A stretch of 64,000 bases of DNA from Cyanobacteria bacterium FACHB-63 (GTDB lineage: Bacteria; Cyanobacteriota; Cyanobacteriia; Leptolyngbyales; Leptolyngbyaceae). The stretch is taken from assembly GCA_014695255.1 (NCBI GenBank), contig JACJNX010000028.1, positions 1 to 64,000 on the forward strand, written 5' to 3'. Made by a program: the position numbers and the translations under genes. The notes beneath the pieces are model-generated. The model made no database searches. It was not told where the DNA came from and worked only from the letters and a program-made list of their open reading frames with translations. Shown here in pieces: positions 19,509 through 61,918 of the stretch; the stretch's first letter is position 1; every line of letters starts with the position of its first letter.

Positions 19509-22500
19509 TTAGCTTAATTCTATCGGAATTGAGATTTTGAACTCGGTGCCTTTATCGGGTTGCGAGGTAAAGGTCAATGAACCGCCATGCTTTTCTACCA
19601 CGATTTGATAACAAATTGAAAGACCTAATCCGGTTCCTTTGCCTTCTGGTTTCGTGGTGAAAAAGGCTTCAAATAGATGCTGCTGCACTTCTGGCGGCAT
19701 TCCCGCACCATTGTCTGAAATCCGAATGATGGCGTTGTTTTCTTCTATATGAGTTGCGATCGTAATTGTATTCAGGGCTTTTTCAATCTCTGCGTATTGC
19801 TTCCCTTGGTTGGAGTCTTCTAAAGCATCGATCGCGTTTGCTAGCAGATTCATAAAGACTTGATTGAGTTGGGCAGCAAAGCAGCGTACTTCGGGAAGGG
19901 GTTCATACTGTTTAATGATTTGGATCGCGGGACGATCAAAACTCGCTTTCAGCCGATGCGACAGAATCATCAGCGTTGAATCTAATCCTTTGTGTAAGTC
20001 CGCAGGTTGTTTCTCGGTGCTATCGCTGCGCGAATAGCTGCGGAGTGAGTGCATGATGTCCCGAATTCGCTCAATTCCCAGCTTCATCGAATCAATCATC
20101 TTGGGCAGATCTTCGGCGACAAATTCTAAGTCCATCTGATCGATTAGCTCGGCGATCTCGGCGTGAGAATTCGGGTAGATGTCCTGATATTTGCGAACTA
20201 GCCCGATCAAGTCCTCGATATATTGAGCGGCATATTTGAGATTGCCGGAGATAAAACCAACTGGATTGTTAACCTCATGAGCAACTCCCGCGACCAGTTG
20301 ACCCAAGCTAGAGATTTTTTCCGTTTGGATGAGTTGAGTTTGGGTCTGCTGAAGTTGAATCAGGGACTGTTCGAGTTGTGAGGCGCGATCGCGCTCTCGT
20401 GCTTCAGCTATTTGCAGATTTTGGTATAAGGTAGCGTTAGAAATGGCGATCGCCATTTGAGTTGACAGCAACGATAAAACTTTCCAGCGATCGCGAGTGA
20501 AAGCATGAGTTAACTGGCGATGCTCTAGGTAAAAGATGCCAACTAACTGATTTTGATACTGCACAGGGAAACACAAAATCGATTTGGGTCGGTGCTTGAG
20601 AATATAAGCATCCGTTGCAAACGCTGCATCGTTTGTCACGTCGTGAATTAACTGCTTTTCTTGAGTGCGATCGACATAGTGAATGAGCGGGATCGGAACG
20701 GCTTCCTCTAATGAGGTCGGAAGCGATCGGATCAGAGTAATTCCAGAACGATCGCTGATGCCTTGCGCTACAACGCGCCAGCGAGTCTGTTCTTGAGCCG
20801 CGAAGCGATCGCCATCTAGCAGCAAAATTACTCCGATTTGCGCTCCTGCATTCTCCATCACCACTCGAATCAGCGTTTCGAGCAGTTTATCGAGCTGAAT
20901 TGCTTGTGAAATCACCTCGGAAGCTTTCAAGATTGTCGCGAGATCAAGAAGTTGGGAGGTGTCGGTACTGCTTGAAGAGAGATGGGAAGCCGAGAAGGTC
21001 TGCTCGGTTGGGGCAGCATCAGTGGTGTAAATGAATTTTGAGAGTTGCGGATAGTTGCGCTCTAACTGTACAAGCTTCTCGGTCGCTCCCCAAGCTCGAT
21101 AAAGATAGTAGGCTTCGAGTAAGAACGCTTGAGCAATGTTTTCTTTGCTATCTGCAATCCAAAACTTGGCGGTTTGCTCATTGATTAAAGCAATATCGGG
21201 TGTGAATTCGCTGAGAGTAGCTTGAGTAAGCGCTTGATCGTAGAGAGTGATCGCGCTGCTGCGGTCGCCGGATAGTCGTGCGATTTCTGCTTCGATGAGT
21301 TGATACTGATGCAGGAAGTTCTCAGGGCAATGCTCTGCCCAGACTTTCATCTGCTGCTGATTGTTCGATAGTTCCTGCCACAGTTGTTTTTGCGTGCTGG
21401 AGTCGGCTTTGGGATACAGAGCAGATAGGATTAAGGAATGATAGAAATTGAAGGCGGCTAGTGAGATGCAGCCCGGAATGTATTGCAGCAGGGGTTTCGC
21501 GGCTTGAATACAGTCTAAAGCATCACTTGGACGATCAAACAGGTAGAGAACTTGTGCCTTGAATATTTTATAAAAGCAGATGACTGAGAAACTGGAGTGC
21601 GATCGACAGTCTTCTAAGAATTGGTTCTCCTTTAGAGCAGTCAAGTTTCCCTGAAGCGTCTGGATAGTAAGCTGACAAGCAGATAACATCTCTTGAGCTA
21701 GCTGATTTTGCGTCTGCTGTGCAAACTTCTGATAATCAGGAATCTTTAGGCTCAAGCTCTCTAGATCAATCCCTTGGTAAAAACAATTGACCATCTGATG
21801 AGCAATGTTATAGCCCGCAAACTGAAGTTCGCCAGATTCCAGTCCTGCTTGATAGCCTTCCATGAATGTAGCTGCATCTTCCTTCAAAGGATGCACCCAA
21901 TGGTTCACTGATCCACCAATCACAACACAGACTTTGCACTTCTCGGCTTGATCCTTGAAGCGCTCAGTGAGTTTTAAGCTGAGTTGCCCAAATTCATAGC
22001 CCGATTGATATTCCCCCAGCATTGATCCAAGAATCAAGCCATACTCTGAATACCCATAGGTTGATTCTGGAAGCTGTCCGTACTTCAATGAGAGATTGAC
22101 CAGCTTCATTACGACAATCATCCAGAGAGCATGATTCGAGAAATACGTGGGCGCGCCAAGCGCAACCAGTAGCTTTGCGGCAGTTTTTTGCTCTGGAATG
22201 CTGATCTCTTTGCCGTTGAGAATCTCAGAAATCTTTCTACCACGCAGGAGCAGTTTTGCTTGGGCAAGCTCTAATTCTAGAACGGCTTCTAGATCAATTT
22301 CTGGAAACGCGATGTTCAAGAGATCGAGTGCCCTCTGTCCAGCGACGATCGCAGCTTGATACTGTGTTTTCAGCGTATAAACAACAATCAGGAGCTTATA
22401 CAGTTCTGCTTGCTCTAGTGCAGTTTTGGCATAGATCAGACTACGATCGATGAGATCCTGCGCCGCCTCGAAGTTGCCTAATAGATACTCAACTTCTGCT

Positions 22501-24887
22501 TGCTCTCTATACAAGCGAAGCATCAACTCATACTGCTCTGACCAAGCATCACCTAAGATAGCGCTGGCGCTTATGAAATATTGTTGTGCTGCACTGTAAG
22601 CAGTTGCCTGCTTTGCTTTGCACCCAGCTTGTAGATTTAGGTTTGCAAGTTCAAGCCGTTCTTGCGGAGCCGTAATTAAAGCTTGTCCAATGTTGAAGTG
22701 CTCTGTTAATTCAAAGATCAGATCATTGCGTCGCTCAATAGGCGATTTTTCATACAGCAATCGCCCAATTTGCAGATGCACCGATTGCTTCTGCTGATCG
22801 CTAATCAGAGCGTATGCCGCTTGCTGAATGCGATCGTGCAAAAAGCGGTAGTTTAAGTAGATGAGGTGAGTGGTTGCAGGGTCAATTTCAGGCGCAGAGG
22901 TGGGAGCAATCATGCCAAAATCGACTGCATGACTCAGCAATTGAGTTAGCTCTACTTCGGAGCTTGAGTGAATTAGTGCAAGCGTTTTAAGGTCAAATTG
23001 ATTACCGATACAGGCTGCAAGCTGAAGAACTTGCTGAGTGTCATTCGGTAGCTTTTTGAGCTTACGAATTAATAATTCAACAACGTTATCCGTAAAGTCG
23101 ATCGCCTGAATTTGCTCGATCTCCCAGCGCCAACTTCGACGATCGACATCAAACGAAAGCAGCTTTTCTTGGTGCAGCGTTTTGAGCAATTCATTGACGA
23201 AAAATGGATTGCCCTCGGTCTTCTGCATGACCAACTCGGTGAGCGGTTGCACCGCATCAATCGAACACTGCAAGGTATCAGAGATTAACTCAGCCACCTG
23301 CTCGGTGTTTAGTGGAGTGAGCACGATCGACTGGAGGTTCACTTTTGCCAATTGCAGTTCTTCGCGCAACATCATCAGCGGATGAGCAGCATCTACCTCA
23401 TTGTCCCGGTACGCTCCGATTAAAAAGAGGTGCTGTGTTTGCTCGTTGGTGAGCATCAGCTTGATCAGTCGCAAAGTTGCGGAGTCCGCCCACTGAAGAT
23501 CGTCGAGGAAAATCACAAACGGATGGGCAGGCTGGCAAAAGACCTGAATAAAGTTTTGAAATAGGCGATCGAAGCGATTTTGGGCTTCAGTCGGTGGGAG
23601 AACGGCAACCGCAGGCTGAGCGCCAATGATCCATTCAAGCTCTGGAATCACATCGATAATCACTTGCGCCTGTGTTCCCAATGCAGCAAGTAACTGTTCG
23701 CGCCAGCGCTGTAACTCTGCTTCAGGTTCGCTGAGCAGTTGCCGCATCAGCGATTGGAATGCAACTACGATCGCAGAGTACGGAATGTTGCGCTGCAATT
23801 GATCGAACTTGCCAGAGATGAAATAGCCGCGCCGCTGCACGATCGGCTTGTACACTTCCTGCACCAACGAAGATTTACCAATCCCAGAGTATCCCGTTAC
23901 CAGCAAAAACTCATGGGTTGCCGTCCGGGGAACTGCAACGCGATCGAAAGTCTCAAGCAGCGTTTTAACTTCTTGGTTGCGTCCATACAGCTTTGCAGGA
24001 ATCTGAAACCGATCGCATAAATCCTGCTGCGCTAACACAAACGCTTCGATTTTTCCGTCCTGTTCGTACTGTTGCTGACAGCGCTCTAAATCGTGTTTCA
24101 GACCCATCGCGCTTTGATAGCGATCTTCTGCTGTTTTTGCCATCAGCTTCAGGACGATCGCAGACAGCATTTCTGGCACGCCAAAATTTAGCTCAGTGGG
24201 TGAGATGGGCTGTCTTGCTAAGTGACAATAGACCAGTTCTAAGGGATCACGCGACTCAAAAGGTAGGCGCTGCGTTAGAAGTTGATAGAACGTGACTCCA
24301 AGCGAATAGAAATCAGTGCGATAGTCGATCTCTCGATTCATTCGCCCGGTTTGCTCTGGCGATAGATAGGCTAGTGTTCCTTCTAGTCGAGTCGGATTGA
24401 TCAGAGACTGTGTTTCTGCTTGCAGAACTGTTGCAATGCTAAAGTCAGTGATTTTAACTTGCTTGGTTTCTGGATTGATCAGTAGATTTGCAGGTTTAAT
24501 ATCTTTGTGAATAATATTGTGTTGGTGCAATTGAGCAAGAATTTGTGCGACTTGGATCGCGATCGCAAAAAACTCGCTTAAGCTTGGTGCATGGTGTTCG
24601 TAATATTGTTTGAGTGAAATTGCACCAAAATCCTCTAGCACTAATGCTAAGGCGGTTCCATAATTTTCAATGCAGTAGGAGCGAACGACTCCAGGTAAGT
24701 TGAGCCGCTCAGACAAGGTAAACTGCTTGCGAAAGGTTGCCAGTTCTCTGGGTGTCGGATACTGACCCTTGAGCAACTTAATCGCAACAGGATGTCGATC
24801 GTGCGATCGACATCCCCGATATACGACAGTTTTTGTACTTTCGTAGATCTTTTCGTTCAGTTGGTATCCAGGAAGTACAGGTAACAT
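19509..24887 (-). CDS. Giant Ser/Thr kinase - AAA ATPase - GAF - histidine kinase
   Basis: The 1792-residue protein joins two kinase chemistries in one chain, like the HstK/Pkn group of Nostoc. Residues ~8-265 are a Ser/Thr kinase: VAIKLLKG carries the ATP lysine and IIHKDIKPANLL the catalytic loop, but the DFG triplet reads DFS (KITDFSIATVL). A PknK-like AAA domain starts near 300 with P-loop GYSGIGKSS. Helical repeats of the MalT type fill ~600-1250. A GAF domain lies around 1330-1500, a coiled coil follows, then the histidine kinase (LVAGVAHEVNNPVG; NLLANAIDAL; GTGLGLSICYQI). It probably acts in stress signalling with an unlinked response regulator. Confidence 0.92.
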   Translation of the reverse strand: MLPVLPGYQLNEKIYESTKTVVYRGCRSHDRHPVAIKLLKGQYPTPRELATFRKQFTLSERLNLPGVVRSYCIENYGTALALVLEDFGAISLKQYYEHHAPSLSEFFAIAIQVAQILAQLHQHNIIHKDIKPANLLINPETKQVKITDFSIATVLQAETQSLINPTRLEGTLAYLSPEQTGRMNREIDYRTDFYSLGVTFYQLLTQRLPFESRDPLELVYCHLARQPISPTELNFGVPEMLSAIVLKLMAKTAEDRYQSAMGLKHDLERCQQQYEQDGKIEAFVLAQQDLCDRFQIPAKLYGRNQEVKTLLETFDRVAVPRTATHEFLLVTGYSGIGKSSLVQEVYKPIVQRRGYFISGKFDQLQRNIPYSAIVVAFQSLMRQLLSEPEAELQRWREQLLAALGTQAQVIIDVIPELEWIIGAQPAVAVLPPTEAQNRFDRLFQNFIQVFCQPAHPFVIFLDDLQWADSATLRLIKLMLTNEQTQHLFLIGAYRDNEVDAAHPLMMLREELQLAKVNLQSIVLTPLNTEQVAELISDTLQCSIDAVQPLTELVMQKTEGNPFFVNELLKTLHQEKLLSFDVDRRSWRWEIEQIQAIDFTDNVVELLIRKLKKLPNDTQQVLQLAACIGNQFDLKTLALIHSSSEVELTQLLSHAVDFGMIAPTSAPEIDPATTHLIYLNYRFLHDRIQQAAYALISDQQKQSVHLQIGRLLYEKSPIERRNDLIFELTEHFNIGQALITAPQERLELANLNLQAGCKAKQATAYSAAQQYFISASAILGDAWSEQYELMLRLYREQAEVEYLLGNFEAAQDLIDRSLIYAKTALEQAELYKLLIVVYTLKTQYQAAIVAGQRALDLLNIAFPEIDLEAVLELELAQAKLLLRGRKISEILNGKEISIPEQKTAAKLLVALGAPTYFSNHALWMIVVMKLVNLSLKYGQLPESTYGYSEYGLILGSMLGEYQSGYEFGQLSLKLTERFKDQAEKCKVCVVIGGSVNHWVHPLKEDAATFMEGYQAGLESGELQFAGYNIAHQMVNCFYQGIDLESLSLKIPDYQKFAQQTQNQLAQEMLSACQLTIQTLQGNLTALKENQFLEDCRSHSSFSVICFYKIFKAQVLYLFDRPSDALDCIQAAKPLLQYIPGCISLAAFNFYHSLILSALYPKADSSTQKQLWQELSNNQQQMKVWAEHCPENFLHQYQLIEAEIARLSGDRSSAITLYDQALTQATLSEFTPDIALINEQTAKFWIADSKENIAQAFLLEAYYLYRAWGATEKLVQLERNYPQLSKFIYTTDAAPTEQTFSASHLSSSSTDTSQLLDLATILKASEVISQAIQLDKLLETLIRVVMENAGAQIGVILLLDGDRFAAQEQTRWRVVAQGISDRSGITLIRSLPTSLEEAVPIPLIHYVDRTQEKQLIHDVTNDAAFATDAYILKHRPKSILCFPVQYQNQLVGIFYLEHRQLTHAFTRDRWKVLSLLSTQMAIAISNATLYQNLQIAEARERDRASQLEQSLIQLQQTQTQLIQTEKISSLGQLVAGVAHEVNNPVGFISGNLKYAAQYIEDLIGLVRKYQDIYPNSHAEIAELIDQMDLEFVAEDLPKMIDSMKLGIERIRDIMHSLRSYSRSDSTEKQPADLHKGLDSTLMILSHRLKASFDRPAIQIIKQYEPLPEVRCFAAQLNQVFMNLLANAIDALEDSNQGKQYAEIEKALNTITIATHIEENNAIIRISDNGAGMPPEVQQHLFEAFFTTKPEGKGTGLGLSICYQIVVEKHGGSLTFTSQPDKGTEFKISIPIELS

Positions 24888-30051: not shown

Positions 30052-33000
30052 CTACACTGGAATCCAGCGACCGACTTCACCTGATACCAAACTTGCATAG
30101 TACAAGTTGCCATCAGCCCCAGTTCTAATCTGTGTCAAACCAAACATAAACTGGTCAATTTGTCGCGGATCCCCCACCACTGCACCCGATGAATCAAGGG
30201 ACAGCGCAGAGACTGTTCCCCGACTCATATCAGTGATGATCAAATCCCCCCTGTAGAAGTCGCCGACGTTGACGGCAGCGGTGCCGCCATCGTGTGAGTA
30301 CGTATAAAGCGGAGCAGTTACCCTAGCAGCATCAGGACTGGACATGAACGCTTGAATGCTGGAGAGATTATCATAGCCGCTTGCTCTTTCGCGTCCTTCA
30401 AACGCCGTCCAACCGAAGTTTTCGCCACCTCGTCCAGTGTTGACTTCTTCCCATCGCGACCAGCCGACATCACCGATGTAGGTCTGCCCATTGGTCGGGC
30501 TAATCGTAAAGCGGAATGGATTTCGCAAGCCAGACTGCCAAATTTTCGATCGATTACTTTGCGGATTGCCATCAAAGAACGGATTCGAGGAGGGAGCATT
30601 CCCGGTAATTGGATCGATTCGCAGAATCTTACCCGATAGATTATCCAAGCTCAGGACGCGAACGGCTCTCGAATCAACATTGTTGTACGAAGCGCCATCT
30701 CCATTACTCACATACAAGTAACCATCGCTGCCAAATCGGACTGTCCCGATCGTGTGCGATTCACTATCAGCAATCAGGAAGTCTTGAACGTAGTTGCCAT
30801 TCGCATCTCGACCCGATTCTGGAATAAAGAAGTTGTTGGTGCTATTGTCGCCCGGACTGCTGATGTACTGCCAGACGCTGTTTCGACCCAGAATCACTTC
30901 TTCGCTGCCACGATTGATCGACACTACTCCGTTGGTGATTGTAGCGGTAAATCGTCCCAGTCGTGCTGCTCGGTTGCCCACGGCATCTGGCCGCTCTAGT
31001 TCAGGAACAAAGCCTGCTCTGCGCGTTTCGGGCGGGTCATACGAGTACAGCAAGTAGACATACGGGCTGCCATTGAAGAATTGCGGGTGTATCGCTAGAC
31101 CGAGTAAGCCACGATCGCGGGGACTGTTGACAATATCAGAAATATCGACGGCGGGTGTTTGTTGTAACACCCCGTTTCGAGCTACCCGGACAACCCCATT
31201 CTTTTGAGCAATGAACATATATTCACCGCCTGGTGTCCAATCAAATGCAGTCGGCTCTAACAGTCCTGAAGTCACAGTCTGACGAGTGACGCTGAAGTCG
31301 TTATCTGAGATCGACAAGATTGCGGTTTGCCGACCCAAACTCCCTGAGAACGGATTGCTCAAGGTGAGATTAATCGTCTCGTTGCGTTCGCTCTCACGGT
31401 CATCGCGGATTGCGATCGTGAACGTCTTGCTGGTTTCTCCAGGTGCAAAGGCGAGAGTACCAAAGGTTGCCGTGTAGTCTGAGCCAGCCGTTGCCGTGCT
31501 ATCCGCGGTGGCATAGCTGATGCTACCAGTCGTCGAGGTATCCCCATTTCGTTGAACGGTAATTGTCGCGGTTCCCGCGCCCTCATTGACATTGAATTCG
31601 GCAGCGCTAAGGCTATAGCTCGTTGGCGCGTCATTATCGATGATGGTAATCTGCGCGGTGCGGTTAATGCCCAAAGTTGCACCCGCAGCTTCTGTCATAC
31701 CAAAACCAAAGGACTCAGTGCCTTCTTCGATGCGATCGTTGAGAATCGGAATTACTACGGTTTTGCTAGTTTCCCCCGCGGCAAAGATAAGCTCACCCGA
31801 GGTAGCAGTGAAATCTGTTCCTGATCTAGCGCTTCCTTCTATGGTCGAGTATTTCGCAGTTGCGACTCCATCGCTACCACCGACGCGATCAATCCGGACT
31901 GTGGCGGTTCCAGTATCTTCGTTGACCGTGACGCTGTTCGTTCCGATCACGAGGGTGCCGGGATTGGTCGAGAAGACATTGCTGTAAAGCTGCGATTGCG
32001 GAATGATCTGACGAGCTTGATTGGCGCTAAACCAGCCCAGTTGGGCCGAAGCATCATAGCCGTTCTCGAAATACTCCATCACAATGTCATAGCGCTGTCC
32101 GGCTTGCAGCGCGATCGTGCCTCCGCGCTCAGTTGCAGATTGATTCGCAAAGCTGTCGATAATGAGTTGACCATTCACAGACAATCGTACCCCATCATCA
32201 GTGGTCGTGAAGAAGGTGTAGGTATCGCTGTGAAGCGGCTGAACTTGACCTGCCCAACGGACTGAGAAGGTGTCAGGAGCAATGTTGGGGTCAGGTGAAC
32301 TTTGTGCCCAGTTGAAGTTGATGCTGGCATCAGTGCGAGCAAATCTAAAGGCTGTAAAGTCGATGTTGTCGAAATACTCACCTCGTAGACCGTTGCCTGT
32401 GCCGGGGGTTGGAGTTGGGGGTGGAGGTGTGGGGTTTGAGGGAGCAGTGCTGAATAGTTGGGATTGTGGAATGATTTGCTTTGTAATGCCAGGTGCTGAC
32501 CAACCCAGGAGCGCCGCAGCCCCACCACCGTTCTCGTAGTATTCCATGCGGATGTCGTAGCGCTGCCCTGCCACTAGCGCGATCGACCCGGTACGCTCGG
32601 TCACTGGCTGATCCGCAAAGCTGTTGATCACCAGTTGATTGTTGACAAACAGGCGGACTCCATCATCGGTGGTGGTGAAGAATTGATAGGTTCCCGATGT
32701 GGGTGCAAGCACTTGACCTGTCCAGCGGACTGAGAAAGTATCAGCACCGATGCCTGCGGCGGGTGAGCCTAGTATCCAGTCAAAGTTCACTGTGGCATCA
32801 GTGCGCGTCAGAATGCGATTGGTGAAGTCAATATTGTCGAAGTATTCGCCTAGCAGACCATTCCCTGTACCAGTAGGCGGAGGGGTGGGAGTTGGGGGTG
32901 GAGGGGTGGGAGTTGTAGCGCTAAACAGTTGAGACTGCGGAATGATTTGCTTTGTAATGCCTGGTGCTGACCAACCCAGGAGCGCTGAGGCACCATAGCC

Positions 33001-34416
33001 ATTCTCGAAATACTCCATGCGGATGTCGTAGCGCTGCCCTGCCACTAGCGCGATCGATCCAGTACGCTCGGTGGGCGGTTGATCAACAAAACTGTTGATT
33101 ACCAGTTGGTCGTTAACAAACAGGCGGACTCCATCATCGGTAGTAGTGAAGAATTGATAGGTTCCCGACGTAGGCGCGAGTACCTGACCTGTCCAACGGA
33201 CTGAGAAAGTATCAGCTCCAATGCCTGCGGCGGGTGAAGTTTCTCCCCAGTCAAAGTTCACTGTGGCATCGGTGCGCGTCAGAATGCGATTGGTGAAGTC
33301 GATATTGTCGAAGTATTCGCCTAGCAGACCATTCCCTGTACCAGTGGGCGGAGGGGTGGGAGTTGGGGGTGGAGGGGTGGGAGTTGTAGCGCTAAACAGT
33401 TGGGACTGCGGAATAATTTGCTTTGTAATGCCCGGTCCTGACCAGCCCAGGAGCGCTGAGGCATCATAGCCATTCTCGAAATACTCCATGCGGATGTTGT
33501 AACGCTGTCCAGCTTGAAGCGCGATCGACCCGGTACGCTCGGTGGGCGGTTGATCGACAAAACTGTTGATTACCAGTTGGTCATTGACAAACAGGCGGAC
33601 TCCATCATCAGTGGTGGTGAAGAATTGATAGGTTCCCGACGTAGGCGCGAGTACCTGACCTGTCCAACGGACTGAGAAAGTGTCGGGGGCAATTCCAGGC
33701 GCGGGTGAAGCTTCTCCCCAGTTAAAGTTCACTGTGGCATCAGTGCGCGTCAGAATGCGATTGGTGAAGTCGATGGTGTCGAAATACTCACCCTGTAGTC
33801 CGTTACCATCTGCAAGAATGCCTGTGTACTGGGCGAGTAGATTGGGATCAAACGGTAAAGCTGCCTCGATCGTCCAAGTTGAGGCTTCAAGTGTCCAGTT
33901 CCCGCCGCGATCTGCACTTCCAGTTGCATCGGTTGAAGCAGCAACATCGGATCCAGTGAGTTCGCTCAGGACTGTAATTAGCGAAGTATCGCCATCTGCA
34001 ACATTACAACCGTACAGCAGGATATCTGCATCGGTAGATAGGGCATTTGACCAACTTCTCAGCTTGTCGCTGTAGCCAGAGATCGTACCGAGGTCAAGAG
34101 CCGCCTTGCCGAGTTCAATACTGCTAATGCTGCCGTGAGAGAGGATATGAATACTGTCTAAGTTTTGATATCCAGCGAGAACTTCGCTGATTTGGTCGAT
34201 TCCATCTGTGTTGACATCGAGCAATACCACTTTTGTCCCACTGCTTACGCTAGCAGCGAGACTCTGAGCATTTTCAACGGCTGAATCGATAAATACCAAG
34301 CGATTCGACGAACTAGATCGCGCCGTTTCCAGGTTGGCGGAGTCGAACGGAGAACCACTAGGAGATTGAGAATAAGTTAAATCTAAGAGATTTGAGGAAT
34401 TAGAAGAACTCTGCAT
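30052..34416 (-). CDS. DUF4347 - PA14 x4 - Calx-beta x2 - glucose/sorbosone dehydrogenase-like exoprotein
   Basis: This 1454-residue protein is built like a secreted or surface enzyme-adhesin. Order: DUF4347 (about 40-180; VFIDSAVENAQSL, HILSHGS, LLYGCNVADG); four PA14 carbohydrate-binding-type repeats (about 205-815), each with GEYFDNIDF, FSVRWTGQV and YQFFTTTDDGVRLFVN, separated by Pro/Thr linkers; two Calx-beta domains (about 825-1035); and a C-terminal beta-propeller of the PQQ-dependent sugar dehydrogenase type (IVNSPRDRGLLGLAIHPQF, DGYLYVSNGDG, IWQSGLRNPFRF, IGDVGWSRWEEVN). No classical signal peptide or RTX repeats are seen. A role in extracellular glycan binding and oxidation is inference. 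Confidence 0.88.
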   Translation of the reverse strand: MQSSSNSSNLLDLTYSQSPSGSPFDSANLETARSSSSNRLVFIDSAVENAQSLAASVSSGTKVVLLDVNTDGIDQISEVLAGYQNLDSIHILSHGSISSIELGKAALDLGTISGYSDKLRSWSNALSTDADILLYGCNVADGDTSLITVLSELTGSDVAASTDATGSADRGGNWTLEASTWTIEAALPFDPNLLAQYTGILADGNGLQGEYFDTIDFTNRILTRTDATVNFNWGEASPAPGIAPDTFSVRWTGQVLAPTSGTYQFFTTTDDGVRLFVNDQLVINSFVDQPPTERTGSIALQAGQRYNIRMEYFENGYDASALLGWSGPGITKQIIPQSQLFSATTPTPPPPTPTPPPTGTGNGLLGEYFDNIDFTNRILTRTDATVNFDWGETSPAAGIGADTFSVRWTGQVLAPTSGTYQFFTTTDDGVRLFVNDQLVINSFVDQPPTERTGSIALVAGQRYDIRMEYFENGYGASALLGWSAPGITKQIIPQSQLFSATTPTPPPPTPTPPPTGTGNGLLGEYFDNIDFTNRILTRTDATVNFDWILGSPAAGIGADTFSVRWTGQVLAPTSGTYQFFTTTDDGVRLFVNNQLVINSFADQPVTERTGSIALVAGQRYDIRMEYYENGGGAAALLGWSAPGITKQIIPQSQLFSTAPSNPTPPPPTPTPGTGNGLRGEYFDNIDFTAFRFARTDASINFNWAQSSPDPNIAPDTFSVRWAGQVQPLHSDTYTFFTTTDDGVRLSVNGQLIIDSFANQSATERGGTIALQAGQRYDIVMEYFENGYDASAQLGWFSANQARQIIPQSQLYSNVFSTNPGTLVIGTNSVTVNEDTGTATVRIDRVGGSDGVATAKYSTIEGSARSGTDFTATSGELIFAAGETSKTVVIPILNDRIEEGTESFGFGMTEAAGATLGINRTAQITIIDNDAPTSYSLSAAEFNVNEGAGTATITVQRNGDTSTTGSISYATADSTATAGSDYTATFGTLAFAPGETSKTFTIAIRDDRESERNETINLTLSNPFSGSLGRQTAILSISDNDFSVTRQTVTSGLLEPTAFDWTPGGEYMFIAQKNGVVRVARNGVLQQTPAVDISDIVNSPRDRGLLGLAIHPQFFNGSPYVYLLYSYDPPETRRAGFVPELERPDAVGNRAARLGRFTATITNGVVSINRGSEEVILGRNSVWQYISSPGDNSTNNFFIPESGRDANGNYVQDFLIADSESHTIGTVRFGSDGYLYVSNGDGASYNNVDSRAVRVLSLDNLSGKILRIDPITGNAPSSNPFFDGNPQSNRSKIWQSGLRNPFRFTISPTNGQTYIGDVGWSRWEEVNTGRGGENFGWTAFEGRERASGYDNLSSIQAFMSSPDAARVTAPLYTYSHDGGTAAVNVGDFYRGDLIITDMSRGTVSALSLDSSGAVVGDPRQIDQFMFGLTQIRTGADGNLYYASLVSGEVGRWIPV
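32882..32910 (+). other. G-run cluster in PA14 linker, potential G-quadruplex (copy 1)
   Basis: The plus strand, which is the template for the exoprotein gene, carries five G-runs of three or more separated by loops of at most seven bases. They encode the PTPPPPTPTPPP linker on the other strand. An equivalent copy lies at 33353-33381. Quadruplex formation is predicted from pattern only. Confidence 0.5.
33353..33381 (+). other. G-run cluster in PA14 linker, potential G-quadruplex (copy 2)
   Basis: The same G-run arrangement as at 32882-32910, exactly 471 bp further on. A weaker third version lies at about 32404-32435, where one run is interrupted. Confidence 0.5.
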
Positions 34417-55871: not shown

Positions 55872-58800
55872 TTAGTTGTAACTGTTACACAAGGAACGAT
55901 CGTCTTTTGTAGAATCTGACCGTACGTATGATCGCACCCGATCGCAGCTTCGGCTCAATAAGTTATCTAAATTGAGATTCCATCTGGTCAAGCCTAAACG
56001 ATCGCTGGTACTCAAAAGTTTGTCAGACTGAAAGGCAACACTAGCAATCCGATCGTTCGTGCCGACTAGGGTTTTAATCAGCTCTCCGGTTTCACTGTTC
56101 CAAAGCTTGATCGTCGTATCATCACTGCCAGAAGCTAACACTAAACCCTCTTGATTAAAGCTCAAGGATGTCACTCCGCCATTGTGTCCGATCAAGGTTT
56201 GTCGTAATCTAGCTTCATCAACTGCCCAGAGCTTAATCGTATTGTCCCAACTTGCAGAAGCTAATGTTTTTCCATCGGGACTAAAAGCGATCGCGCCTAC
56301 TGCTAAGTTATGTTTGCCAAGAATCGTGGAAGTTCTGCGATCGACATTCCACAGCCGCACGGTATTATCAACGCTGCCAGAAGCCAAGCGTCCATCAGGA
56401 CTGTAGCTTAAGCTCGTCACTTCGTCGGTATGACCTTGCAAAATTGTGCGGACACTACCTTGAAGCGTCCAAATCTTAATCGTTCGATCTGCACTTGCCG
56501 ATGCGAAGGTTTCTTGATCAGGACTAAAACTTAATGCCGTAACCCGATCGTTGTGTCCTGAAATAGTTCTAATCAGCTCTCCAGTGCTGATATTCCACAG
56601 TCGAATTGTTTTATCTGCACTGCCAGAGATGAGCAATGTATTATCCGGACTGATTTGAATCTGAGTAATCAGTGCAGTGTGACCTTTTAAGCTGAGAAAA
56701 TCTTTGTTGTTTTGCAAGAGAATCGTGTTGTCAGAAGCCGCGATCGCGGTAATGCTTCCGTCTAAATTGGTGGTCATCGTTGATAGACCTGTATTCAATC
56801 GAGCCGGTAAATCCATCTGCCAAATCCGCGCTGTTTTATCCGCACTCGCGCTGAGAAGCTGAGTTCCAGCAGGACTAAAGCTAACGTGCATGACTGCGGC
56901 TCCATGTCCTTGAAGGGTTTGAAGCGATGCACCTTCTAAATTCCAAAGCCGAATCGTGCGATCGCTTGAACCTGTCGCGATCGTCCCTCCATCGGGACTA
57001 TAGCTTGCAGTGTTAACCTGATCGCGATGTCCTTCTAAGGTTGTAATTTCTTTGCCGTTCAATGTCCAAAGCTTTGCCACGTTGTCCCCACTGGTGAGAA
57101 ACGATCGACCATTTGAAGCCATCATCACGCTGGTTACACGATCGTTGTGAACTCTAAAGCTTCTCAGCGCAGCCACTCTCCCCACTTGCCAAAACCTCAC
57201 CGTTCCATCTTCGCCACCGGATAGGATCTGACGATCGTTCTGTCCGAATGTCACACTGTTGACCCATCCTCTATGCCCCCGAAAGGTTTGAGCGACTCTC
57301 ATGCTATCGAGTTGCCATAGCTTCACGGTGCCGTCTCGACTGCCCGAAATGAGCGATCGACCATTCGAGCTAAACCGCACCGATGTCACCCAGTTTTGAT
57401 GTCCAGTCAAGGTCTGTATCAATGTGCCGTCACGATTCCACAGCTTGATGGTTTTATCCGCGCTAGCCGTGGCAAGTTGCTGTTGATCAGGGCTGAATGC
57501 CACCGCTAAAACACGATCGCTGTGTCCCACTAAATCTTTAATCAATTGACCTTCACGCGACCATAGTTTTACTAAGTTGTCGTTGCTCGCAGTAACAATT
57601 AGCTGACCATCAGAACTCATCTGCACGTCATTAACTTGCTGGGCGTGACCTGTGAGCCGATTCGATTCTTGCGTTTGAGAGATTGCCTGCTGTAAAGTTG
57701 CGATCGTATTAGTTCGCACATCTATCGGGACGAATTGATCAAGCTGTTTTAGCTGTTGTCCTGCTTTAATCGCTGCGGTTAGCGCCTCTAATTGTTGATT
57801 CGAGTTCAGTAATGCTTCAGATGAGGCAGACAGGGCTTGAATCGATCGGATTTGAGCATTTCGCTGATTCCACAGTGCCAATCCTCCTAATCCAAATGCA
57901 GCAACTGCTAAGCTGGCAATTGCTGCGATCGCTTGTTGAGCGCGTCTGAGCCGACGTTTGAGCGCAATTTTCTCATTCTGACGCGCTTCTAAACTGGCTT
58001 CAATAAAGATTTGAGTATCTTGAGTTAGTTCATCAGTGTACTTAACATAAAGTTCTTCTGCTTCCGCCAGCCGCATTCCTCGCAACAATAAATCTGGAGG
58101 GCGGTTGCTCTTTTTCCAGTCGATCGCGGCTTGCTCGATCGGTCGCTGCACTCTCAATCGATTGCGGTTCTCATCTAGCCACCAGCGCAAGGTTGACCAG
58201 TGGCGAATCAGAATTTCGTGGGCAACTTCAATGGTGACAGAAGGCTCAAACTCTGCTTGTTCAAGCTTTAATTGTTCAATCTCTGATTGTTCAATGCTCC
58301 GACTAATGGGCACATCTTCGGCGTTGATCACAATCAGTTTTGCAGCACTAAGCGATTGTAAAGTTCGATCGACCAAAGCTTGAGGATACTTTGCAACCGA
58401 CAACTCCGACTTCAGCACCCTCCGCCGCGTATCTTCAACACCTTCTCCTAGCTGCGTGAGCGACAGGAAAATCCATCGAGCGCAGTGCTGCTCCTCTGGA
58501 TCAAGCTGGTTGTAAGCGGATTGAGCTTTATGCTCTAATGCACCCTGCAATCCACCAATCTCAGCTTGATAGGCTTCTAGTGTGAGTGTTCCTTGTTGCC
58601 GATGCTGCCAAAGCTGCTCCAACACAAACTCTAAAATCGGCAAGTCTCCCGGAGTGCGATCAAGTTCTTGCAGCAGCACTTCGACCAGTCCCGGCTCTAC
58701 GGTTAATCCCACTTGTTCCGCAGGGCGCACAATCACCTGACGGTACTCTTCATCGCTGAGGCAAGGAGGAATCAGAATGCTCGATCGCTGTAAAATCGCC

Positions 58801-60824
58801 GCGAGTTGAGGCACTTCTAAGCCTGCCGCGACAAAATCTGCTCTCAATGTCAGCACTAATTTGAAGCGATCGCGGGTGTACTCCAGTGTTTCTAAAACAA
58901 TATTGAGAAAGTCTTGCCGAACTGGTTCCGAACACAGCGTAAACAGTTCCTCGAACTGATCAATCACCAGCATGACCATCGGTTCAGCACGAGTTCTAAA
59001 CCATTGCACCAACCCTTCTACCCCTTGATACAACAGTCCCTCGACTTGCTCTTGTTCCTCTGACTCAGCCAAACACTTAACCAGTGCATCAAACGGACGA
59101 TCGCCCGGACACATTCGCCCCAGCCACCAGTGTTCACTACCGGGGACACGCTGCCCTTGTCTTAACTGTGCCATCAATCCAGCTTGCACGATCGAAGACT
59201 TCCCGCTTCCTGATGCACCGACCACCGCTAAACAAGATTGCTGCTGAACTGCCTGCAAAAGCTGTTGGGTTAAAGTCGATCGTCCATAAAAGAACTCTGC
59301 ATCATGCTCTGTAAACGGCTGCAATCCCCGATAAGGACAGACACTAATATCTGAGCTTCGATTCGCCTGCTGGCTCGGAAACACTTCGATCACACCCTGC
59401 GTTCCCGATAGCCAAACCGATAGTGTCGTTTGTCCTGCTAATGCCAGTTGAAGCTGAGTAATCCATGCTGCAACCGGATACCCAGAGTGACGATCGGCAG
59501 CATTCAAAGTCTCAACCAGCGATCTCGTAAATAGTTCAGGATCAGTCCGAGAAGCTGCTGCAATCAAGCATTGTCCCTGCTCTCGCTGCAACTCTTCGAT
59601 CCAATCAGGTAAATTACTTGCATTCGGACAATCCAGAATCACAATCTGTTGAGCCGCTGTACTGTGTCGCAGGGTTTGACGCAGCCACGATCGCGAAACG
59701 CGCTCTGTTCCCAGGATTACACAGGGTTCGCCTTCAGCCGTAGTCCCAACTCTAGCCCGGAGATACAGTAGAATCGTCGTTGCTTCGGGAGTTTGTAGCT
59801 TGGTTTGAATGCTTGATCGAATCGTCTCCCAATCATCAGACTGATAAGCCAGTTCGAATCCAGCGCTGAGCAGCTTACTCAATTGCAGGGTTAGACTGTG
59901 ATTGGGAAAAGCATCAATGACGATCGCTTGACGAGAAGGAGGTGCGATCGTGCTTGATTTTACACCAATCACAAACTGCCCAAAGCCTTCTACAACTCGT
60001 TTTGGTGTTTGCAGTGGATACTCAGGCTGAAGCTGCGTCTCACCGCGTCCTCGTTTTTGCTGATTAATCAACCGGAGTTGTTGATTGCTTTTATCAATGT
60101 ACTGAAGTGTTTGATGATACACATACTTGTATAAACCATCGGCATCGATCGTTCCGGTTGCGTCTGCTGCGGCTCCCCGGAGTCCTTGCATCAGGAAATA
60201 GGTAAACACCCCATGTCCTAACTCTGGAAACTCCCACGACTGCTGTGCTTGATCGCACGACAGCAAAGCGTAGAAGCCTTGGCTCTCCGAAGCTTGTCGC
60301 CCCAACACCCGCACTAACTGCTGAGTCGGATTCGGCAACGTGCCTCTCAGCGTCATTCCGCCACTGTGACAAGCATCTAACCAGATGATCTGCTGTTTTG
60401 CTTGACACTGACTGAACTGTTCTAAAAGTTCAGCAACACTCAGCCCAGTGTTGGACAAATCTGCTTTCTGAGTATCGGTTAAACAAAGAATTGGCTGTTG
60501 TGTGGTCGTCTCTAATACTCCGTGACCTGAAAAATACACCAGAACAGTATCTATCGCTTGCGCCGACTGCACAATCTCCCTTAGGCTATCGCGGACTTGA
60601 CTTAGGGTCGCTGGCACTCCAAAATCATGGCGGATTTGCATCGATCGCTGCGGAAAGCTTTGAGTTGCATCGATCAGCGCTTCAGAAAGACCCTGACAAT
60701 CGATCGCGGAATATTGTAGTGAGGGGAGTTGCGGATCTCTGTAGCGATTCACACCAATCAGCAAGATCCAGAGTTTAGCTTGTCCCGTTTCTAGGACGCT
60801 AGAACGATTGAGAGCGCGGGGCAT
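55872..60824 (-). CDS. Caspase - pseudo-caspase - nSTAND NTPase - membrane helix - WD40 protein
   Basis: This 1650-residue protein resembles cyanobacterial orthocaspase NLR-like proteins. Residues ~18-265 form a p20/p10 caspase (C14) domain with His101 in YFSGHG and Cys152 in LDACHSGGM. Residues ~295-480 look like a second caspase-type domain whose catalytic elements are altered (YLRARV for YFSGHG; LDCPNAS for LDACHSG). A nSTAND1 NTPase follows with P-loop GASGSGKS (536-543) and Walker B VMLVIDQFEELF. One membrane helix lies near 970. About 14 WD40 blades, two of them degenerate, run from ~1057 to the end, enough for two propellers. It probably couples sensing to proteolysis, perhaps cell death or immunity. 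Confidence 0.88.
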   Translation of the reverse strand: MPRALNRSSVLETGQAKLWILLIGVNRYRDPQLPSLQYSAIDCQGLSEALIDATQSFPQRSMQIRHDFGVPATLSQVRDSLREIVQSAQAIDTVLVYFSGHGVLETTTQQPILCLTDTQKADLSNTGLSVAELLEQFSQCQAKQQIIWLDACHSGGMTLRGTLPNPTQQLVRVLGRQASESQGFYALLSCDQAQQSWEFPELGHGVFTYFLMQGLRGAAADATGTIDADGLYKYVYHQTLQYIDKSNQQLRLINQQKRGRGETQLQPEYPLQTPKRVVEGFGQFVIGVKSSTIAPPSRQAIVIDAFPNHSLTLQLSKLLSAGFELAYQSDDWETIRSSIQTKLQTPEATTILLYLRARVGTTAEGEPCVILGTERVSRSWLRQTLRHSTAAQQIVILDCPNASNLPDWIEELQREQGQCLIAAASRTDPELFTRSLVETLNAADRHSGYPVAAWITQLQLALAGQTTLSVWLSGTQGVIEVFPSQQANRSSDISVCPYRGLQPFTEHDAEFFYGRSTLTQQLLQAVQQQSCLAVVGASGSGKSSIVQAGLMAQLRQGQRVPGSEHWWLGRMCPGDRPFDALVKCLAESEEQEQVEGLLYQGVEGLVQWFRTRAEPMVMLVIDQFEELFTLCSEPVRQDFLNIVLETLEYTRDRFKLVLTLRADFVAAGLEVPQLAAILQRSSILIPPCLSDEEYRQVIVRPAEQVGLTVEPGLVEVLLQELDRTPGDLPILEFVLEQLWQHRQQGTLTLEAYQAEIGGLQGALEHKAQSAYNQLDPEEQHCARWIFLSLTQLGEGVEDTRRRVLKSELSVAKYPQALVDRTLQSLSAAKLIVINAEDVPISRSIEQSEIEQLKLEQAEFEPSVTIEVAHEILIRHWSTLRWWLDENRNRLRVQRPIEQAAIDWKKSNRPPDLLLRGMRLAEAEELYVKYTDELTQDTQIFIEASLEARQNEKIALKRRLRRAQQAIAAIASLAVAAFGLGGLALWNQRNAQIRSIQALSASSEALLNSNQQLEALTAAIKAGQQLKQLDQFVPIDVRTNTIATLQQAISQTQESNRLTGHAQQVNDVQMSSDGQLIVTASNDNLVKLWSREGQLIKDLVGHSDRVLAVAFSPDQQQLATASADKTIKLWNRDGTLIQTLTGHQNWVTSVRFSSNGRSLISGSRDGTVKLWQLDSMRVAQTFRGHRGWVNSVTFGQNDRQILSGGEDGTVRFWQVGRVAALRSFRVHNDRVTSVMMASNGRSFLTSGDNVAKLWTLNGKEITTLEGHRDQVNTASYSPDGGTIATGSSDRTIRLWNLEGASLQTLQGHGAAVMHVSFSPAGTQLLSASADKTARIWQMDLPARLNTGLSTMTTNLDGSITAIAASDNTILLQNNKDFLSLKGHTALITQIQISPDNTLLISGSADKTIRLWNISTGELIRTISGHNDRVTALSFSPDQETFASASADRTIKIWTLQGSVRTILQGHTDEVTSLSYSPDGRLASGSVDNTVRLWNVDRRTSTILGKHNLAVGAIAFSPDGKTLASASWDNTIKLWAVDEARLRQTLIGHNGGVTSLSFNQEGLVLASGSDDTTIKLWNSETGELIKTLVGTNDRIASVAFQSDKLLSTSDRLGLTRWNLNLDNLLSRSCDRVRSYVRSDSTKDDRSLCNSYN

Positions 60825-60883: not shown

Positions 60884-61807
60884 TTAATGATCAATGGCGT
60901 AAGTATAATCGAACAGTTGCCCCACTTGGTGACGTAAGCCTGCTAATGGGTAAAGTTTTGGAGCCATCGTTTCTGCATATTGATCGGCTGCCACGATCGC
61001 GTGACGTGCTTCGGCTTTCGGCAGTCGCCCTTGCTTGAATGCTTGAATTAAGGCTTCGATGCCTTGGTTGTATTCCGCGCTGTTCCGGAAGTTGAACTGT
61101 TGCTGAGTTTGTTGTGAGGTTGCTTGCGATGGGTTTGTGGGTGAAGCATTCGGAGCGACTGCGACCATTGGTAACACGATCGGAGCTTGCAGCGACAGCA
61201 CATAGACACTAGCAGCAGGCAACTGCACAACCCGAACATTTTTGGGAGAAGACATCCCACTGAGAATCCCGATCGCGCCTCCAATCATTCCTCCACGCTC
61301 AAACATATCCGTAGAGCGGCTACTTGGAGCCGTTGCACCCATAACAGATCCCAAAAGGTTGCCAAAAACGCCGCTATTTTCGCGGGCACGCTCTGCACCG
61401 CTGACCTGCTCGATCGTATTGCCCGGAATCACCGCCGTTGTTGCTTGAATCGGGACAATCTGACCGCGAACGACGATCGCTTCTGCCACGATTCGCGCTC
61501 CACCATTCTCCGGCTTTAATTTGATAGAGACGGGCGTATCAGCCGGAACCACTTCGTTTCCTTGCAGATCAATCAGCGGTTGTGCCAACGGAACCGTTAA
61601 GGGATAGTCTTGTTTTTGTCCCACGTCAACATTGACTGCACCAGGAAGCTTAATCACGACTCCTGCTGTTTGAGGGATGATTGTACCAGACTGAGGGCTA
61701 GAGAGAGAGGCTGTGTTAGAAACCACGACCTGAGCCGAAACCGGAAGCGCAACAGGAGCAGAAACCGCGATCGTTAAAGCCAAGTTCAACAGTGTACGAG
61801 CGTTCAT
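60884..61807 (-). CDS. Exported protein of unknown function with glycine-rich segment
   Basis: The 307-residue protein has a clear signal peptide (LLNLALTIAVSAPVALPVSA). A beta-rich region follows (QDYPLTVPLAQPLIDLQGNE; VPADTPVSIKLKPENGGARI). A Gly-rich hydrophobic stretch, GGMIGGAIGILSGM, may insert in a membrane, and the C-terminus is helical. I do not recognise a family beyond cyanobacterial exported proteins of similar layout. The ATG at 61807 has a ribosome site (AGGAAAG) upstream and is preferred to 61903. The promoter region contains one copy of the repeat shared with vapB. Confidence 0.65.
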   Translation of the reverse strand: MNARTLLNLALTIAVSAPVALPVSAQVVVSNTASLSSPQSGTIIPQTAGVVIKLPGAVNVDVGQKQDYPLTVPLAQPLIDLQGNEVVPADTPVSIKLKPENGGARIVAEAIVVRGQIVPIQATTAVIPGNTIEQVSGAERARENSGVFGNLLGSVMGATAPSSRSTDMFERGGMIGGAIGILSGMSSPKNVRVVQLPAASVYVLSLQAPIVLPMVAVAPNASPTNPSQATSQQTQQQFNFRNSAEYNQGIEALIQAFKQGRLPKAEARHAIVAADQYAETMAPKLYPLAGLRHQVGQLFDYTYAIDH

Positions 61808-61918
61808 CAGTCTTTCCTCTGTACGATTACATCTGAGGAATAGGGACGGCGATCGACTTTTATGCAGCTTCTCTCGCAGGTAGCTAGAAGCAAGTTTTTG
61901 CACTTGTTGGTGGCGATC

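Follow-up and report, generated by a model that had tools for sequence, protein, structure and literature searches.

Known pairings of active and inactive caspases

Inactive caspase homologues have been described both in animals and in cyanobacteria. In the death receptor pathway, c-FLIP(L) carries Arg and Tyr at the positions of the catalytic dyad and is an energetically favoured partner for caspase-8 (PMC7586951). The YS and YN pseudo-orthocaspases of cyanobacteria are dead, keep the two pocket Asp residues and mostly occur without other domains (PMC6426788, PMC8283722). In the vWA-MoxR ternary conflict systems, inactive caspases are accompanied by other caspases (PMC7159879). Fusions of active caspases are also on record: orthocaspases with AAA_16, NACHT or WD40 domains have been reported (PMC7475262, PMC2853523, PMC3501461), and caspase-WD40 and caspase-GUN4 proteins of cyanobacteria have already been described (PMC5756287, PMC7475262, PMC2853523, PMC3501461).

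The gene analysed here lies in a 64,000-nucleotide stretch of DNA from Cyanobacteria bacterium FACHB-63 (the window), and its product begins with a caspase domain with an intact dyad (domain 1) followed by a predicted pseudo-caspase (domain 2). The initial annotation compared this arrangement with c-FLIP, and as an analogy the comparison is fair. c-FLIP(L) is likewise a full-fold pseudo-caspase in which His is replaced by Arg and Cys is lost, it is paired with an active caspase (PMC7586951), and one of the structural matches of domain 2 is the c-FLIP(L) protease-like domain. In contrast, c-FLIP(L) is encoded by a separate animal gene, is recruited through its DED and is present at a variable ratio (PMC7586951), whereas here both domains belong to one bacterial chain together with nSTAND1 and WD40. 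Since domains 1 and 2 share a chain, they form a fixed 1:1 pair, whereas the effect of c-FLIP varies with its ratio to caspase-8 (PMC7586951). No common descent of the two pairings is implied. Domain 2 resembles the YS/YN pseudo-orthocaspases in being a catalytically dead caspase domain of a cyanobacterium (PMC6426788, PMC8283722). However, it differs from that group in having mostly Arg and Pro at the dyad positions, in having lost the pocket, in matching no Pfam family and in standing behind a caspase whose active site is intact; membership in the YS/YN group was ruled out by motif and pocket. The vWA-MoxR caspases differ in being separate proteins and in being tied to a different switch (PMC7159879).

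In the literature searched, which included few subscription papers, we found no account of a tandem of caspase and pseudo-caspase. Dead caspases are already known in cyanobacteria; the live-dead tandem with nSTAND1, GUN4 or helical repeats is new within that literature. It bears on the control of STAND-linked bacterial caspases, their being held off as well as their activation. The question becomes testable because the live-dead pair is covalent and conserved and single-caspase relatives still exist for comparison.

Gene layout and the active-site-intact caspase

The gene occupies positions 55872..60824 on the minus strand and encodes 1650 residues, the same reading frame that had first been described. 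From the ORF list, Pfam and NCBIfam models and hydropathy, the order of its parts is caspase, pseudo-caspase, nSTAND1, transmembrane-like helix and WD40 array. The nSTAND1 NTPase (residues 497-910; 58095..59336, minus strand) matches PF20703 with 411.3 bits, and the WD40 array (approximately residues 1049-1612, with limits taken from beta-propeller model matches; 55989..57680, minus strand) matches PF00400 in 12 stretches with 425.6 bits, so that these two parts had been correctly recognized from the outset. Between them lies a transmembrane-like helix (residues 965-985; 57870..57932, minus strand; hydropathy 2.2), preceded by a basic stretch. By a crude 19-residue window test, such a helix occurs in the same region in 51 of 53 tandem proteins of at least 1500 residues. 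The protein thus has the N-terminal effector, nSTAND1 NTPase and C-terminal repeats of an nSTAND1 receptor.

Domain 1 (residues 17-289; 59958..60776, minus strand) matches the NF047832 caspase model with 153.5 bits, against a cut-off of 140. The SGHG and DACHSGG motifs previously noted in this domain are present and correspond to the dyad residues His101 (codon 60522..60524, minus strand) and Cys152 (codon 60369..60371, minus strand), respectively. In an AlphaFold2 model of the tandem (residues 3-489; mean pLDDT 89.4, pTM 0.81), domain 1 matches procaspase-6 (VIA Z 22.1, rmsd 3.0, 227 residues) and one chain of the caspase-8:c-FLIP(L) complex (VIA Z 20.4). Conservation was followed in 107 distinct proteins with both domains, drawn from loci L001-L136 with identical sequences counted once. 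Among the rows with a letter at the position, the dyad is invariant (His 105/105, Cys 106/106), as are the pocket residues (Asp42 104/104, Asp191 106/106). Domain 1 therefore combines a caspase fold carrying the His-Cys dyad with two acidic pocket residues, as in orthocaspases and other C14-type proteins.

As read from the motifs, Asp42 and Asp191 would be the counterparts of Asp95 and Asp211 of TbMC2, which are acidic pocket residues for a basic P1 (PMC6426788), and domain 1 is predicted to cut after Arg or Lys. The loop after Cys152, which contains MTLRG, is modelled with low confidence in the tandem and has Arg160 in 70 of the 107 proteins; a protease specific for Arg/Lys might cleave itself at an Arg in this loop. 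Self-processing has been reported for the orthocaspase MaOC1 (PMC5756287). Values of dN/dS for domain 1 range from 0.04 to 0.10 in the six of eight pairs for which they were computable.

The second domain has a predicted caspase fold

Standard profiles match domain 2 (residues 297-485; 59370..59936, minus strand) weakly or not at all. Residues 285-495 alone match NF047832 with 24.6 bits (E 1.5e-5), which is below the cut-off, and match no Pfam family; when domain 2 by itself was compared with PDB sequences, two matches were returned (E 0.42 and 0.74), both taken as chance. Across 78 sequences of the domain-2 family, NF047832 matches 63, and Peptidase_C14 of Pfam (E<=0.01) matches none, which suggests that surveys built on Pfam's caspase model would miss such pseudo-caspases. 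The same null result could be read as a sign that domain 2 has no caspase fold at all. However, this is contradicted by the profile match of domain 2 to active B-type caspases (E 1.9e-18, see below) and by structure prediction. From the 78 sequences and without templates, AlphaFold2 folds residues 296-486 alone with a pLDDT of 94.1 and a pTM of 0.91. The model matches procaspase-6 across the whole domain (VIA Z 18.7, rmsd 2.5, 178 of 191 residues) and also the protease-like domain of c-FLIP(L) (3h13; VIA Z 16.8, rmsd 2.8, 168 residues). By title, all 50 VIA matches listed are caspases, paracaspase, metacaspase, legumain or c-FLIP(L), with Z from 16.8 to 18.7. Similarly, Foldseek returned a Geobacter caspase-like protein, MALT1, caspases, legumain and metacaspase, with E-values down to 4e-7. 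A non-caspase fold was ruled out on these AlphaFold2, Foldseek and VIA results, and we consider it a negligible prospect.

The fate of the original proposal had been tied to the fold of residues 295-480, for which AlphaFold2, Foldseek and VIA give a caspase fold, and the proposal was not refuted. Both AlphaFold2 models are predictions from a method trained on known structures. According to the model, domain 2 keeps the caspase fold up to the last strand, the strand that pairs in caspase dimers. The initial annotation also held that both domains have the same strand order; in the tandem model this is true of the main strands and helices, but a few short elements differ.

Loss and conservation at the dead site

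The segments TILLYLRARV and QQIVILDCPNAS sit in the second domain at the positions given for them earlier, and the reported loss of His and alteration of the Cys region hold throughout the family: none of the 107 distinct tandem proteins has His at position 358 or Cys at position 400. The site of the lost His lies in YLRAR (residues 354-358; 59751..59765, minus strand), where position 358 is Arg in 72 proteins, Gln in 10, Lys in nine, Glu in seven and other residues in the remainder. The site of the lost Cys lies in DCP (residues 398-400; 59625..59633, minus strand), where position 400 is Pro in 86, Leu in 10 and otherwise varied; an alignment shift of one residue would move Cys399 into the place of the Cys, and the His is lost regardless. 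The pocket residues Asp42 and Asp191 have no conserved counterpart in domain 2 of the 107 proteins. Domain 2 thus joins a predicted caspase fold to the loss of both catalytic residues, and, on the strength of the model, it is a true pseudo-caspase that retains the full fold but neither catalytic residue and no acidic pocket. Fold prediction, motifs and conservation together bear out the first description of the gene in so far as an intact-dyad caspase precedes a pseudo-caspase within a single nSTAND1-WD40 protein.

Other residues at the dead site are nearly fixed (Tyr354 107/107, Arg356 102/107, Asp398 107/107, Cys399 100/107), and the fixation of Tyr354, Arg356 and Asp398 argues for a role of the dead site that has been kept. 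Purifying selection on domain 2 was seen in all eight comparisons (dN/dS 0.07-0.22, with dS above 1 in seven of the eight). By this measure, the evolution of domain 1 is somewhat slower (six computable pairs, versus eight for domain 2). Its higher range, together with the lost pocket, would be expected if domain 2 were a passive remnant, that is, a folded domain that only separates domain 1 from the next part of the protein and is kept for stability. Against this, residues are conserved at the dead site itself, and domain 2 is also kept in 19 complete short forms that have no nSTAND1 (see below). We therefore regard a mere spacer as improbable.

Distribution of the live-dead pair

Domain 2 gave a single match within its own genome, and matches were found in all eight genomes of the genus that were searched and in 13 of 42 of the order. 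At a threshold of E<=1e-3, the domain-2 profile matched at least 47 of 386 cyanobacterial genomes in a scan that scored at most eight first-look candidates per genome. As counted from the listing of these genomes, 30 have a match of at least 90 bits (one of them a broken fragment) and 16 have weak matches only. A scan of contigs from 84,980 species gave at least 80 loci, all listed with cyanobacterial titles; the nearest named tandem genes among the loci listed belong to Pseudanabaenaceae, Phormidium and Leptolyngbya records. Relatives were also present in two of 72,556 plasmid records, NC_011721.1 (Rippkaea orientalis PCC 8801) and NC_019749.1 (Stanieria cyanosphaera PCC 7437).

Domain 2 is found almost without exception behind domain 1. 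Loci L001-L136 contain 108 distinct domain-2 frames above 80 bits; 107 are preceded by domain 1, and the sole exception (L129) lies at a contig start, where the frame is cut. There are 126 tandem reading frames, some of which are one gene seen twice, and their architectures were assigned by single-sequence queries. The 76 complete frames comprise 51 with nSTAND1 and WD40, six with nSTAND1 but without detected WD40, four with GUN4 and 15 with 'VGPIAP' repeats. For instance, Pfam identifies GUN4 in L132 with 125.8 bits and, as a sub-threshold match, in L120. Segments of the 'LVGPIAP' kind are repeated behind the caspase pair in L012-L015, L064, L090, L100, L108 and L114, and in L064 and L108 Pfam assigns these segments to no family. 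Because the GUN4 and helical-repeat forms lack nSTAND1, the pair is evidently kept without this switch too; several of the 19 complete short forms of this type are one gene seen twice. The recurrence of the pair in many cyanobacteria suggests control of the live domain by the dead one.

Origin of the second domain

A search with nSTAND1, followed by reading of the upstream region, found receptors in which a single caspase immediately precedes nSTAND1. Seven of these receptors were made into a profile, which found more. From these single-caspase receptors (L152-L196), 30 distinct caspases, here called B-type, were taken. In 24 of the 30, nSTAND1 begins 8-28 residues after the caspase; in the other six, none was found within the stretch examined. 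Domain 2 ends approximately 12 residues before nSTAND1, and thus sits where the B-type caspases sit. The B-type dyad is largely live (His 29/30, Cys 28/30, both 28/30), and all 30 share the DC of the active site; the residue before the catalytic Cys is itself Cys in 30/30 (DCC), and domain 2 keeps that Cys in 100 of 107 proteins (DCP). In contrast to these single-caspase receptors, the window protein has a dead domain in that place and another caspase in front. A partly lost dyad was also observed in a few B-type caspases, namely L189 (GRG and DCG) and L158/L192 (DCF in L158).

Profile comparisons place domain 2 nearer to this group than to domain 1. With hhalign, domain 2 aligns to the B-type caspases over 173 columns (E 1.9e-18) and to domain 1 over 73 columns (E 6.7e-7); the B-type group and domain 1 for their part also match well (1.6e-21). 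All 25 weak domain-2 profile matches listed are on B-type caspases, as compared by eye, and all 25 domain-2 rows are nearer to B-type caspases than to domain 1 in mean identity (24% versus 19%). Shared columns favour B-type over domain 1 by 19 to 7 (p 0.03) or 22 to 7 (p 0.008), but at a stricter cut by 12 to 6 (p 0.24), so that overall support from this count is modest.

Domain 2 could instead be a decayed tandem duplicate of domain 1. A free tree groups domain 2 with the B-type caspases (support 98/82), but an AU test did not reject a clade of domains 1 and 2 (p 0.582), and the tree constrained to that clade even scored better than the free tree, by 4.96 log units. Since the AU test does not reject that clade, the case for descent from an nSTAND1-linked caspase is built on similarity of profiles, a single motif and position. 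These features, the free tree and the 25 of 25 rows that are nearer to B-type all weigh against duplication, which we judge unlikely. Therefore, conversion of an nSTAND1-linked caspase is the likelier origin on present sequence comparisons, and the probable ancestor of domain 2 is the caspase usually placed just before nSTAND1. We tentatively extend this to an in-place take-over, a scenario that seems plausible but falls somewhat short of an even chance. A caspase-nSTAND1 receptor would have gained a front caspase, its own switch-coupled caspase would have become a built-in pseudo-caspase regulator, and the live-dead pair would then have become a portable unit on other sensors (GUN4, helical repeats). 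If true, the tandem would be an independently arisen, bacterial, single-chain counterpart of caspase-8/c-FLIP.

Possible mode of action

Animal caspases are active as dimers and need a partner. By analogy with c-FLIP(L) and caspase-8, the dead domain may be a built-in partner that couples the nSTAND switch to domain 1; this is the reading that we favour, with nearly even confidence. AlphaFold2 appears to place the two domains in a defined arrangement, because the pTM of the tandem (0.81) exceeds our own rough ceiling of 0.61-0.68 for domains left unplaced. A fixed, covalent, dead partner between switch and protease would fit a role like that of c-FLIP(L). In this scheme, the protein would be a STAND receptor anchored in the membrane, and its output would be the proteolytic action of domain 1. 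Sensing by WD40 would lead nSTAND1 to bind nucleotide and oligomerise, and the pseudo-caspase, at its putative switch-coupled position, would relay the signal to domain 1. It may do so as a fixed dimer-type partner, so that domain 1 would gain activity only upon assembly, perhaps through self-cleavage in the flexible loop that follows Cys152. The analysis itself establishes the sequence, the fold prediction, the conservation and the recurrent fusion; the activity, the coupling, the dimer geometry, the direction of control, the topology, the ligand and the substrates in this scheme are inferred. If the pair works like c-FLIP(L), pseudo-caspase control would have evolved at least twice.

The AlphaFold2 results for the tandem and for domain 2 alone are equally compatible with an opposite effect, in which the pseudo-caspase holds domain 1 inactive until it is freed by movement of the switch or by cleavage between the domains. 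Two basic motifs just before domain 2 could be cut by an Arg/Lys protease: KRxRG (Lys257 79/107, Arg258 69/107, Arg260 73/107, Gly261 104/107) and QTPKR (Lys275 105/107, Arg276 102/107). However, QTPKR partly coincides with a strand close to where the domain-1 fold ends and may be structural, the need of animal caspases for a partner speaks against a purely restraining one, and we know of no inhibitory activity. A restraining role is thus rather unlikely in our estimation, and a partner role remains our preferred reading.

Genomic neighbourhood

The upstream neighbour (60884..61903, minus strand) encodes 339 residues without a Pfam match, and lies 59 bases before the tandem gene on the same strand; its family is upstream of the tandem gene in six of 79 loci. 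No common conserved partner gene was found among these 79 loci, where the largest neighbour clusters occur in 17 and 12. With one member of each tested, the cluster in 17 loci is sigma-70 region 4 and that in 12 loci is DUF1822. An ECF sigma factor and DUF1822 have been reported beside EACC2-caspase genes (PMC8195603). In EACC1 two-gene conflict systems, an upstream gene next to the caspase encodes the EACC1 membrane protein; here the domain-1 score is above the cut-off of the EACC1-type caspase model, and the upstream neighbour is the protein without a Pfam match.

PADLOC gave only a 'caspase' match (71.3 bits), and no defence island was noticed among the neighbours looked at in the window: by eye, these look like prolyl oligopeptidase, P450 and copper-type ATPase, and there are also a cupredoxin-like and a PIN protein. 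Judged by the domain-2 matches in every genome of the genus searched, the tandem gene looks more like a core gene.

Another dead caspase is present elsewhere in the same genome. A domain-1 paralogue on contig C124 (L019) has Trp in place of the catalytic Cys (DVWHANG); no domain 2 was detected in it, and WD40-like repeats appear by eye to follow. Two further large proteins are encoded on the minus strand of the window: a 1792-residue fusion of protein kinase, AAA_16, GAF and histidine kinase (19509-24887) and a 1454-residue DUF4347-PA14-Calx-beta-GSDH protein (30052-34416).
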